Below are positions 7,877 through 15,025 of a stretch of DNA of 32,872 nucleotides, one piece after another. The position numbers were made by a program, and so were the translations under genes. Below the pieces are notes generated by a model, which was not told where the DNA came from, ran no database searches, and was given only the letters and a program-made list of their open reading frames with translations. Within the stretch, counting starts at the first letter, position 1. Each line of letters begins with the position of its first letter. Source of the stretch: a virus; IMG/VR virus record IMGVR_UViG_3300042292_000593, positions 1 to 32,872 of that record; one strand, given 5' to 3'.

Positions 7877-7912
7877 AAAAGCTGAGGGGTAACCATTTAC
7901 CCCTCAGCTTTT
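7877..7912. terminator. Bidirectional intrinsic terminator
   Basis: A perfect 16-bp stem (7877-7892 with 7897-7912) closes a CCAT tetraloop, with AAAA on one flank and TTTT on the other. It can therefore stop transcription both from the primase-helicase gene and from the convergent HNH gene, whose stop is at 7921. Confidence 0.9.
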
Positions 7913-7920
7913 TTATTGTC

Positions 7921-8391
7921 TTAAATAACGTGATATACAGACTTAGCGGCTAGATATGCTTGTCCAGCTTTCTCGGCTGTAGCAAATGTTCCTATATGAA
8001 TCAACTTGCTGTCAACTGTGATTTGCGCAACATATTTTTTGCGAAACATTGAGACGCCAATATAACCAGAGGTATTATCTTTTCGTATACTTTGATTCCA
8101 TAAGTTTTGCTGATTGGTAGCTTCGCGTAAGTTACATATCCTATTATCTGATCTAATTCTATTGATATGGTCAATCTGTTTTTCTGGAAAGCGACCATAA
8201 ACATACAGAAACGCCAATCTGTGTGCTTTATATCGTTTATTGTGTATCTTAATCAGTATATATCCATTTTCCTTTTTGCATCCAGCAATGCTTCCTGCTT
8301 TTACGCTGTTACGTTTAGAAGTCAACCATGTAAACAGGCCGGTTTCAGTATCGTAGTGCAGTAATTCTTTGAGCTGAGCTTGTGTAAGCAT
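7921..8391 (-). CDS. HNH homing endonuclease with AP2 domain (copy 1)
   Basis: This 156-residue protein has an N-terminal segment MLTQAQLKEL, then an HNH_3-type nuclease core (IDHINRIRSDNRICNLREAT, residues 73-92, with His75 and the Asn/His finger). A C-terminal AP2-like DNA-binding domain follows (about 100-150, SGYIGVSMFRKKYVAQITVD). Such free-standing enzymes cut at recombination-prone sites and copy themselves into phages lacking them. It is the only minus-strand gene right of 6277, enclosed by a terminator and its own promoter and structured leader. AAGGAG lies 7 bases before the ATG. It is a diverged paralogue of the gene at 13281. Confidence 0.9.
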   Translation of the reverse strand: MLTQAQLKELLHYDTETGLFTWLTSKRNSVKAGSIAGCKKENGYILIKIHNKRYKAHRLAFLYVYGRFPEKQIDHINRIRSDNRICNLREATNQQNLWNQSIRKDNTSGYIGVSMFRKKYVAQITVDSKLIHIGTFATAEKAGQAYLAAKSVYHVI

Positions 8392-8428
8392 ACGTGATCT
8401 CCTTGGTTATTGGCGGTTCATAGAGGAA

Positions 8429-8479
8429 GTGCGACTGTTAGTGAACCAGACTAACGAGGTTTCGAACCCTCTGTCGCAC
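8429..8479 (-). ncRNA. Three-way-junction RNA element upstream of HNH copy 1
   Basis: On the minus strand three perfect helices form a compact junction. The closing stem is GTGCGAC/GTCGCAC (8479-8473 with 8435-8429). Hairpin 1 is GAGG/CCTC with an 8-nt loop. Hairpin 2 is GTTAGT/ACTAAC with loop CTGGTTC. Single A residues link the closing stem to each hairpin and none separates the hairpins. It begins at the predicted +1 of the extended -10 promoter and ends 37 nt before the HNH ATG. The same layout precedes HNH copy 2. Confidence 0.75.
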
Positions 8480-8485
8480 GCATTC

Positions 8486-8494
8486 ATTATAACA
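8486..8494 (-). promoter_or_regulatory. Extended -10 promoter of HNH cassette 1
   Basis: The minus strand reads TGTTATAAT, a consensus extended -10 (TG-N-TATAAT); no good -35 is present, as allowed for this class. The predicted +1 is 8479, the first base of the three-way junction. Confidence 0.7.
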
Positions 8495-8496
8495 TA

Positions 8497-8528
8497 GTTC
8501 GATCCGGGGAGTGATCCCCGGATCGAAC
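8497..8528. repeat. Perfect 14-bp hairpin upstream of HNH cassette 1
   Basis: Arms GTTCGATCCGGGGA (8497-8510) and 8515-8528 are exact reverse complements around a GTGA loop. No U-tract follows on either strand. It separates the HNH cassette from the hairpin-rich region and may insulate or mark the cassette edge. Confidence 0.7.
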
Positions 8529-8975
8529 ACTTAGAGATTGTTTAGCGCTTGCTCTTTCGCTTGTACAGAAGGATATAGAGAGCAGCCCCTTGTGATTCAC
8601 ATGTTAACGCACAGTGATGGTTACCCGGCAGGTCCACGGGCCCCAACAAAACGATTCATTTCAAATGAAATGACAGACTAGCTTTCGTGTGATCCGAAAC
8701 GGTTTTTCACACAAAAGCAATATACGGCCTGCGTATATTATCGCGTCGTCAACTACGCGCCTGTCCTTGTTAAGGAGGGAGTTCGTAGCTTCACGGGCTA
8801 CAGGGTACAGGATGATGGCGCTAAGGCCGATTAAAGAGCTATCCTGATCCTCTTGATCGGGAGAGAGGTTTCCCGACTGCGTGCGAGCGTTACGCCGTAT
8901 GCCTATGTTGGCTGAGGGGTCAGTCCTCAGCCGTGTGCTATTCTAACCACACATATCACAACCTGTCAATTCCCT
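8529..8975. other. Hairpin-dense gene-free region A
   Basis: About 450 bases without a convincing ORF. Short perfect inverted repeats follow one another: 8656-8673 (8 bp), 8687-8712 (GTGTGA/TCACAC), 8719-8739 (AATATACG/CGTATATT), 8742-8759, 8764-8776, 8785-8801, 8808-8846 (CAGGAT/ATCCTG), 8858-8875 and 8910-8932 (GGCTGAGG/CCTCAGCC). The density suggests a structured RNA or a replication origin. No canonical tRNA was found, and I could not establish the strand. Confidence 0.5.
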
Positions 8976-12684: not shown

Positions 12685-12904
12685 ATTTGACAAATGGCAT
12701 GACGAGAACATTTGCGACTTATTACAGGGCAATTTACGGAACGGGTTGCTGGCTGCGTGGGAGGCCGCGCAAGAAGCAGAACGAGATAGACATAGAGCTT
12801 TCATAGCGAACTTAATTGAGAAATGGAAGGAGAGGCCTGAAGATGAGTTGGCTACAAGGTTATGGCTAATGGCTGATGAAGTGGAGGCCGCGAACAATGG
12901 GTGA
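12677..12904 (+). CDS. Hypothetical helical protein with LWxMADxV tail
   Basis: Start ATG 12677 follows AGAGG by six bases. The 75-residue helical protein (MSEFDKWHDENICDLL...) ends ATRLWLMADEVEAANNG, mirroring the C terminus of the preceding gene. It overlaps both neighbours. No family is recognised. Confidence 0.5.
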   Translation: MSEFDKWHDENICDLLQGNLRNGLLAAWEAAQEAERDRHRAFIANLIEKWKERPEDELATRLWLMADEVEAANNG

Positions 12905-13193
12905 AGGTAGCAAAATAGAAGCAAATGCTGTTAGACGGCCACCTAATGCTGGCAAAGGCAGAGTCAAGGGTGTACCGAATAAAACCACAGCAGACGTGAG
13001 AAACATGCTGATAGCGTCTCTCGATGCTGTTGGTGGTCAAGCTTATCTCGAAAAGCAAGCAATAGATAATCCCAAGGCTTATTTATCGCTTGTCTCTAAG
13101 GTCATACCTTCTGAGGTAAAGAGTCAAGTAACTGGCTCAGATGGCGGCCCAGTTCAACATTCTGTGACTGTTAAGTTCAATGATGTAAAATAG
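12897..13193 (+). CDS. Probable small terminase subunit
   Basis: Start ATG 12897 (MGEGSKIEAN...) gives 98 residues; the frame is open further upstream but only within the previous gene. The sequence GRVKGVPNKTTADVRNMLIASL, then VGGQAYLEKQA and NPKAYLSLVSKVIP, is the plan of small DNA-recognition proteins encoded before PBSX-type large terminases, with a basic N-terminal arm and a helical core. It would recognise the packaging site and load the large subunit. Its last bases contain the promoter of the intruding HNH cassette, which separates it from the large subunit gene. Confidence 0.7.
   Translation: MGEGSKIEANAVRRPPNAGKGRVKGVPNKTTADVRNMLIASLDAVGGQAYLEKQAIDNPKAYLSLVSKVIPSEVKSQVTGSDGGPVQHSVTVKFNDVK
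13164..13191 (+). promoter_or_regulatory. Promoter of HNH cassette 2 inside the terminase gene end
   Basis: A -35-like GTGACT (13164-13169) and a -10 TAAAAT (13186-13191) are 16 bases apart. The predicted +1 at 13198 coincides within one base with the first nucleotide of the three-way junction at 13199. The site lies in the last codons and stop region of the small terminase gene. Confidence 0.6.
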
Positions 13194-13198
13194 ATGTA

Positions 13199-13248
13199 TG
13201 CGAGACAGGGAGGCATCCCGACTGTATCGGTTAACAGTCAGTCTCGCA
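13199..13248 (+). ncRNA. Three-way-junction RNA element upstream of HNH copy 2
   Basis: The closing stem is TGCGAGAC/GTCTCGCA (13199-13206 with 13241-13248). Hairpin 1 is GGGA/TCCC with loop GGCA (13208-13219). Hairpin 2 is GACTGT/ACAGTC with an 8-nt loop (13220-13239). Single A linkers are at 13207 and 13240. Five T follow at 13249-13253, so the fold could also stop transcription and release a roughly 50-nt RNA. The HNH ATG is 32 nt downstream. The layout matches the element at 8429-8479. Confidence 0.75.
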
Positions 13249-13280
13249 TTTTTATAGCCGACCTTAAACCGGAGGTAGAT

Positions 13281-13763
13281 ATGATTACGCAAGCAAGATT
13301 AAAAGAGCTTTTTGATTACGACGCTTTAACTGGTGATTTGATCAACAGAAAGCAAAGAGGCAATAGTCCAGCAGGGAAAGCTGCGTATAGAGTGATGTGG
13401 AATGGATACAAAAGAATTACTGTCGAGTACAAGCAATATGCAGCGCACCGTTTAATTTGGATGCTTCACTATGGCGAATTTCCTAAGCATGACATTGATC
13501 ACATTAACGGGATCAGAGGTGACAACAGGATAGAAAATCTGCGTGAAGCAACAAGAAGCCAAAATATGCAAAATGAAAAAAAAGCACGATCCCCAAATAA
13601 AGTTGGTCTGTTAGGTGTGTGTGCCCACGGTTCAAATTATAGAGCGCAAATTACCATCGATGGCAAATGCGTAAGGCTTGGTACGCATAAAACACCAGAA
13701 AAAGCGCATGAGGCTTATTTGCAAGCAAAAAAAGCATTGCATCCATATCAGACTATTGCATGA
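13281..13763 (+). CDS. HNH homing endonuclease with AP2 domain (copy 2)
   Basis: Start ATG 13281 follows GGAGGTAGAT at ideal spacing; the frame opens earlier (13194) but through the structured leader. The 160-residue protein starts MITQARLKEL and carries the HNH core DIDHINGIRGDNRIENLREA (residues 71-90). Its C-terminal AP2-like domain is NYRAQITIDGKCVRLGTHKT plus a helix. It shares the full layout and much sequence with the copy at 7921-8391. It sits between the terminase subunit genes, a classical homing target. Its stop overlaps the large-terminase start (ATGA), so it is wired into that gene's translation. Confidence 0.9.
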   Translation: MITQARLKELFDYDALTGDLINRKQRGNSPAGKAAYRVMWNGYKRITVEYKQYAAHRLIWMLHYGEFPKHDIDHINGIRGDNRIENLREATRSQNMQNEKKARSPNKVGLLGVCAHGSNYRAQITIDGKCVRLGTHKTPEKAHEAYLQAKKALHPYQTIA

Positions 13764-15025
13764 CAGAGACTGACGCTCACTTTCCCGCTAAAATGAGGGG
13801 ATTGTTTGAACCCTATCGCTATAAAGTATTTTATGGCGGTAGGGGGTCGGCAAAATCATGGAGCTTCGCTAGAGCATTGTTGATTCAAGCGGCAGAGCGT
13901 CAGCTTCGCATATTGTGTTGTCGAGAAATTCAAAAATCTATCAGGCAATCAGTACACCAGCTGTTGGTTGACCAAATTCAATCGCTTGGCTTTGGGGCGC
14001 TGTTTACAGTTACAGAGACTGCAATCAAATGCTCTAATGGGTCAGAGTTTTATTTTGCTGGATTATCCACGCAAAGCGTAGAAAGCATTAAGTCTTTTGA
14101 GGGCATCGACATAGTATGGGCAGAGGAAAGCCAAGTGATTTCAAAGAAATCATGGGATATATTGCTGCCAACTATCCGCAAACCAAACTCTGAGATATGG
14201 GTTTCTCTTAACCCAGAACTAGATACTGATGACACATATCAAAGATTTATAGTTAACGCGCCCGATAATGCCTTGGTCGTTAAGGTAAATTGGAACGACA
14301 ACCCCTATTTCCCCGCTGTGCTTGAACAGGAGCGTCTGCATTGCCAGCAGCACAATGCGGCTGATTATGCGTGGATATGGGAAGGTAAGCCCAAGACAGT
14401 CGTTGACGGGGCTATCTATGCTGACGAGTACCAAGCATTGATTGATGACCATAGAGTTACTCGCGTATCACATGATCCAGTCCTGAAGACTCATTGCGTG
14501 TTTGACTTGGGATGGAATGACGCAATGACTATTATCATGGTGCAGAAGTCTGGATCAGAGGCCCGCATCATTGACTATATCGAGGAAACGCATCAGACGC
14601 TCGATTGGTACAGCAACACACTAAAACAGCGCCCCTATAACTGGGGTAAGGTATACTTACCGCATGATGCTGTCAGCAAGGACTATCGCACAGGTAAATC
14701 AGCCGCAGAGATTATGACTCAGCTAGGATGGTCTGTTGAGGTGATTCCGATTGGTGACGTAGAGCATGGGATACGCTTGAGTAGGTTACTATTTCCGCGT
14801 GTATGGATGGACAAAGAGAAAACAGCACGATTACAGGAGTGCTTAAAGCGTTATAGACGCTCAATCAATGCTACAACTAATCAACCGACCGGCCCGTTAC
14901 ATGATGAATATAGTCACGGTGCTGACGCATTCAGATATCTGGCCACAGCCATAGACTCAATGCGAAACGATAATATCCAGCGCAAGCGAAGCCTTGACCA
15001 AGGCGCTGGGTCTTGGATGTCTTAA
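13760..15025 (+). CDS. Terminase large subunit (PBSX/XtmB type)
   Basis: This 421-residue packaging motor has an N-terminal ATPase: Walker A GGRGSAKS at 26-33 and Walker B DIVWAEES at 117-124. It also has a C-terminal RNase H-fold nuclease: HCVFDLGWND with Asp249 and Asp254, and HDEYSHGADAFRY with Asp389. The length and motifs fit the PBSX-type TerL group. It cuts concatemers and pumps DNA into the prohead through the portal encoded next. The start overlaps the HNH stop and lacks its own strong ribosome binding site, so translation may depend on coupling to the homing endonuclease ORF. Confidence 0.93.
   Translation: MTETDAHFPAKMRGLFEPYRYKVFYGGRGSAKSWSFARALLIQAAERQLRILCCREIQKSIRQSVHQLLVDQIQSLGFGALFTVTETAIKCSNGSEFYFAGLSTQSVESIKSFEGIDIVWAEESQVISKKSWDILLPTIRKPNSEIWVSLNPELDTDDTYQRFIVNAPDNALVVKVNWNDNPYFPAVLEQERLHCQQHNAADYAWIWEGKPKTVVDGAIYADEYQALIDDHRVTRVSHDPVLKTHCVFDLGWNDAMTIIMVQKSGSEARIIDYIEETHQTLDWYSNTLKQRPYNWGKVYLPHDAVSKDYRTGKSAAEIMTQLGWSVEVIPIGDVEHGIRLSRLLFPRVWMDKEKTARLQECLKRYRRSINATTNQPTGPLHDEYSHGADAFRYLATAIDSMRNDNIQRKRSLDQGAGSWMS

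Follow-up and report, generated by a model that had tools for sequence, protein, structure and literature searches.

A free-standing HNH gene in a phage terminase junction is preceded by a conserved leader RNA that probably acts as a cis-acting translational switch

RNA structure is known to limit the translation of homing endonucleases in T4-type phages, where the I-TevI, mobE and segB genes of T4 and Aeh1 carry hairpins that sequester their ribosome-binding sites (PMC3014915, PMC2988022). Intrinsic terminators have also been described on T4 mobE and segF (PMC2988022), and a reference cited in PMC3014915 presents I-TevI as a transcriptional autorepressor. The leader of T4 gene 32 provides a further case of translational control of a phage mRNA, through a pseudoknot that is bound by gp32 (PMC3014915). 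The gene order terS-HNH-terL, with a 4-base stop/start overlap, is likewise already known from Xanthomonas phage phiXacJX1 (PQ476032). The locus described here resembles the T4 and Aeh1 genes in having an RNA structure that would limit endonuclease translation, but those genes are described with single hairpins at the ribosome-binding site, whereas here a remote loop is predicted to have two alternative partners, and the cassette's own promoter precedes the whole fold. It shares its gene order and overlap with phiXacJX1, in which, however, our leader scan found no three-way junction, and it shares with the T4 gene 32 leader a pseudoknot, here predicted only, although the latter is bound by gp32 and has no alternative sites for the loop. 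The new part, on our best reading of the sequences, is thus a conserved leader with alternative loop partners, common to the Rfam family int-alpA, that would be a cis-acting translational control element.

The window analysed is a 32.9-kb IMG/VR virus record (32,872 nt; IMGVR_UViG_3300042292_000593), in which the initial annotation had placed a homing cassette between the terminase subunits. An HNH_3 endonuclease gene (gene A, 13281..13763, plus strand; 160 aa; Pfam E 1.8e-20) is indeed found there, inserted at the overlap between a putative terS (12897..13193, plus strand), whose last codons form the left flank of the cassette, and a terL of the Terminase_3 family (13760..15025, plus strand). 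The putative terS product belongs to PHROG 11043, of unknown function, and has no match of its own in Pfam or NCBIfam; the call rests on its position and on a C-terminal tail (..DGGPVQHSVxVKF) common to Terminase_2-like relatives (L088 and L093). The C-terminus of the gene A product shows a weak AP2 match. We placed the start of gene A at ATG 13281, behind GGAGG (13271-13275), because its homologues begin MxTQ at that position; a start at 13194 was rejected, since the reading frame open from there merely reads through the leader. The reported overlap of the HNH stop with the terL start was confirmed as ATGA at 13760-13763, the terL ATG lying within it, and terL does lack a strong ribosome-binding site, as had been claimed: it has no Shine-Dalgarno (SD) sequence, with an anti-SD duplex of +0.4 kcal/mol versus -10.8 for gene A. 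Gene A is a real cassette in the terS/terL junction, and the ordinary part of the finding is a free-standing HNH homing gene inside an overlapping gene pair.

Comparison with related phages locates the insertion exactly at the terS/terL overlap. In relatives without the HNH gene (L098, L103, L110), the terL start lies within the last terS codons (ATGACTGA); the empty junction of L098 reads ..AAATTTGATGACTGAAACA, with terS ending ..KFDD before its stop and terL opening ATG ACT GAA. Other phages (L104-L108 and L111-L114) carry a 582-bp cassette in the same junction, following ..TTTGRTGA and ending ..CTGATG at its boundary with GAAACA, which preserves both reading frames and places the terL start in the HNH stop. 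L493 is a further occupied phage, with the junction TAATG, and L496 a third, in which the HNH frame is broken; the stop/start form is thus ATGA in the window and TGATG or TAATG in sister phages. Among the occupied phages the cassette and its right flank are both 99.8-100% identical, while the identity of their left flanks between groups is 85-90%, a pattern compatible with recent gene conversion or with simple recombination and not proof of homing. The nearest relatives of the window itself (L091: terS 90%, terL 82%) are too distant to define base-exact cassette ends, and a distant DNA search for phages with the cassette matched only short terL or HNH pieces.

These comparisons also bear on the proposal that the packaging motor might depend on translation of a selfish gene. 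The stop/start arrangement on which that proposal rested stands, but the dependence is not novel: in the relatives lacking the HNH gene the SD of terL is weak or absent (duplex -0.4 to -4.5), and since their terL starts inside terS, its coupling to the preceding gene is ancestral. By this comparison, the insertion shifted terL coupling from terS to the HNH gene, the cassette re-creating it through ATGA. HNH-terL coupling is likely in the window, because its terL has no SD, and a side effect on terL via HNH translation is plausible.

The junction is variable in other respects. In L088 it holds an MT-A70 methyltransferase gene reaching the terL start, and in L093, L115 and L123 a gene, also reaching the terL start, whose small product (CCxC..ALNNPWP) has no known function. 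The terS products of L088/L093 and of the window are different proteins with a common tail (DGGPxQHxxxVKF) beside terL, as if the N-terminal part had been swapped while the tail stayed. In L496, an A-run near codon 70 marks a break in the HNH frame between terS and terL (from 10958), beyond which the rest of the frame still continues as far as TAATG at the junction; the break fits a mutation, slippage or an assembly error equally.

Upstream of gene A, the plus strand presents a -10-like TAAAAT (13186..13191) that overlaps the terS stop and lies 6 nt ahead of a predicted three-way junction (leader A, 13198..13249). Its stem P1 (13198-13206/13241-13249) encloses P2 (13208-13211/13216-13219) and P3 (13220-13225/13234-13239), joined by A13207 (J12) and A13240 (J31), and the loop of P3 is L3 (ATCGGTTA, 13226..13233). 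The fold has a z-score of -2.6, with 4 of 200 shuffles equally stable. The fold is followed by a terminator-like run of five T (13249..13253), then by R1 (GCCGA, 13257..13261), complementary to L3, and by hairpin P4 (ACCTT-AAACCG-GAGGT, 13261..13276), with a second L3-complementary site, R2 (AACCG, 13267-13271), in its loop and the GGAGG SD mostly in its 3' strand. Of the promoter that had been proposed within the end of terS, the -10-like hexamer is present; by itself, however, the promoter scan of the window was at chance level (1 found versus 1.0 expected), and the -10 of leader A becomes convincing only across the leader family, by sequence comparison. Likewise, the L3-downstream match of leader A alone is not significant (p=0.29), so that the case rests on the family.

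The window contains a second copy of this arrangement at a site unrelated to that of gene A. Gene B (7921..8391, minus strand) is 48% identical to gene A, and the HNH_3 domains of both exceed the Pfam cut-off. On the same strand, its leader comprises a -10 TATAAT (8491-8486), a three-way junction of the same type as in A and without a T-run (8429..8479), R1 (TGAACC, 8420-8415, within 8399..8422), R2 (AACCA, 8408-8404) and an SD (AAGGAG, 8404-8399). For leader B alone, the L3-downstream match has p=0.018. Of the phages related to the window at 7900-8970, L484 has a divergent HNH-like reading frame with a type-1 leader (score 33.8) at the gene B site, and L483 has that site without an HNH gene.

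We then searched the leaders of HNH relatives for three-way junctions in which the third loop has a match further downstream. A combined score (junction and L3 match) of at least 30 was reached by 10.4% of 240 distinct HNH leaders, compared to 0.7% of 78,924 dinucleotide shuffles. About 30 of the 240 have the architecture of leader A, their -10 box lying 4-7 nt ahead of the fold, and the majority of the HNH leaders examined lack the motif. In 26 of 30 good leaders, selected by eye from the scan results, a -10 hexamer (at least 5/6) ends 3-9 nt ahead of P1, versus 18% in shuffled upstream sequence and 4% at random positions in other HNH leaders; this placement indicates that the RNA should start at P1. 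Covariation over the whole structure (28 rows) was 0.497 against 0.196 in shuffled controls. A strict type-1 descriptor, which makes no demand on L3, gave 6 distinct matches in 3.9 Mb (both strands), all with L3 matches and five of them HNH leaders. Furthermore, a DNA pattern consisting only of the P2 hairpin and the P3 end found new leaders on viral contigs (L491, L492/L495, L493, L496), of which those of L493 and L496 are again at terS/terL and that of L491 precedes an HNH gene assigned to PHROG family 953 rather than 99. In these new leaders R1 lies about 6-7 nt and R2 about 17-19 nt past the fold, R2 of L492 requiring a G-U pair; their L3 matches are individually weak against shuffles in four leaders (p 0.02-0.21), and L493/L496 resemble the L104 group. 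Among well-known phage HNH genes the leader scan gave nothing convincing, its one match (L480) being rejected as lying in coding sequence. In a further junction variant (L036, L271, L284, L280), L3 has just one strong match, of 7-8 bp and located at the SD, and R1 is missing.

Three of the HNH leaders searched (L053, L251, L260), and only these, score above the Rfam cut-off for int-alpA (RF02996; covariance-model score of at least 35.8 bits). Leaders A and B gave no RF02996 match even at E 5, a search of the window at the Rfam gathering score returned nothing, and a snoU61 match from a permissive search of leader A was dismissed as due to chance. Leaders A and B share with int-alpA a P1 enclosing P2 and P3, an L3 complementary to R1 and R2, and, in A, a P4 with the SD, and in nearly all bacterial int-alpA loci the start codon likewise lies 26-42 nt downstream. 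In contrast, the junction sequences are A/none/A in A and B and UA/GAAAA/UG in int-alpA. Because of this difference and the missing RF02996 match, we do not file A and B as int-alpA members, and the sequences point to similarity of layout rather than membership. Rfam classes int-alpA as 'Gene; sRNA', with a consensus structure that lacks the L3 pairing, and in the searchable full-text literature the family is named in a single paper, as a list entry. It occurs in 7 of 197 genomes sampled from the order to which a Lelliottia genome belongs and in 47 of 200 from that of a Burkholderia genome. Bacterial int-alpA loci have two L3 sites in 25 of 28 cases and at least one in 27, and their L3-downstream fit was reached by none of 20,000 permutations. 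In an E. coli prophage, a related leader precedes the gene for a hypothetical protein and is flanked by genes for antitermination and for a holin, and Pfam assigned no function to nine of ten ORFs downstream of such leaders, the tenth being an RNase_T exonuclease.

The two L3 partners occupy fixed positions. In HNH and bacterial leaders taken together, R1 and R2 are both present in 46 of 56; R1 begins 7.5+-1.8 nt past the 3' strand of P1 (P1') and R2 ends 8.0+-2.7 nt ahead of the start codon, with nearly equal mean L3 pairing energies (-7.2 and -7.4 kcal/mol). In 18 HNH leaders, also chosen by eye, the fit of each L3 to its own downstream sequence exceeded all 20,000 permutations, and in L251 and L260 the three elements L3, R1 and R2 are altered together. 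On a fixed alignment, the L3:R1 helix exceeds its control only modestly (paired cells 67% versus 61%; up to 64% in slid versions). R2 sits in the P4 loop, and the SD in the P4 3' strand or loop. P4 averages -3.0 kcal/mol in 52 leaders versus 0.04 with shuffled flanks (best of 400 shuffles, -1.25), and 43 of the 52 reach -1 or better, the shuffle maximum being 24. P4 was searched for and not found in leader B and L432.

Taken together, these data make it probable that the -10 promoter, the leader with its three-way junction and the HNH ORF form one free-standing HNH homing unit, and that the leader is a mobile, cis-acting switch of translation in which L3 has alternative partners. A transcript directed by the -10 box would start at P1 and extend into the HNH gene. 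L3 would then have a choice between R1, which is free some 7 nt past the fold, and R2 in the P4 loop; kissing between L3 and R2 would lock P4 and block initiation, and pairing with R1 would free P4, making the leader a switch or brake on HNH translation. Candidate triggers are a ligand, a protein or timing, R1 being transcribed ahead of R2. Because terL starts in the HNH stop without an SD, the switch should also affect terL from that mRNA. The sequences show where the cassette is inserted, how its leader is predicted to fold, and both complementary sites and P4, with their placement and their conservation across the family; pairing in the cell, translational repression, two-state behavior and an effect on terL are what we infer; the alternative pairings that would hide or free the SD, as in a riboswitch, and P4 itself are predictions. 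If correct, a selfish gene has entered an overlapping essential gene pair without disrupting either frame, together with a translational brake of its own, and an orphan RNA family currently labelled sRNA would gain a function and a testable mechanism. More tentatively, and with doubts exceeding our confidence, int-alpA and several junction variants may belong to one widespread class of RNA switches with two states, carried along with homing endonucleases and prophage genes, L3 picking the decoy R1 or the SD-hairpin loop R2 and the conserved junction possibly sensing a ligand.

The initial annotation had instead read the fold and its five T as a transcription attenuator, in which most RNAs would terminate and the level of HNH/terL mRNA would be set. 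The strong fold and the T-run are there, a T-run also occurs in L045, the int-alpA consensus is U-rich at this position, and the terminators of T4 mobE and segF provide a precedent. However, the run follows a junction rather than a simple hairpin, the standard terminator scan found none at leader A, and the T-run is absent from many leaders, among them B, L067 and L432, and is not a general feature of the family, whereas L3, R1, R2 and P4, which a T-run leaves unexplained, are conserved, as is the spacing to the start codon. We consider attenuation unlikely, and leader A is probably not mainly an attenuator. The T-run in some members, together with the Rfam classification, would also fit release of the leader as a trans-acting sRNA of roughly 50 nt, its L3 pairing with other mRNAs, but L3 matches its own downstream sequence at fixed places, its own SD included, 26-42 nt before the start codon, and this reading seems to us quite improbable.

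Two direct copies and one inverted copy (R1, R2 and L3) close to the promoter could alternatively form a DNA operator bound by an autorepressor, be it the HNH protein, as I-TevI would suggest, or a phage repressor. Since the copies occur in the loops of hairpins (P3, P4) whose stems vary, R2 is linked to the SD and an identical layout precedes unrelated bacterial genes, we attach little credence to an operator. It is similarly hard to credit that the fold merely protects the 5' end of the mRNA and that the repeats are by-products: P1 does begin at about the expected transcript start, but R1, R2 and P4 would be left without explanation. The cis-acting switch is the reading that we retain.

Behind a minus-strand promoter (TTGACA-18-TAGAAT, 8969-8940), the window also contains 461 nt without a convincing gene (8485-8945, minus strand) that fold far beyond shuffles (z -6.2 and -6.5 on the two strands). 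This region matches no Rfam family, and L482-L484 retain its promoter-side 170-200 nt at 94-96%; its predicted folding makes it a candidate large structured RNA.
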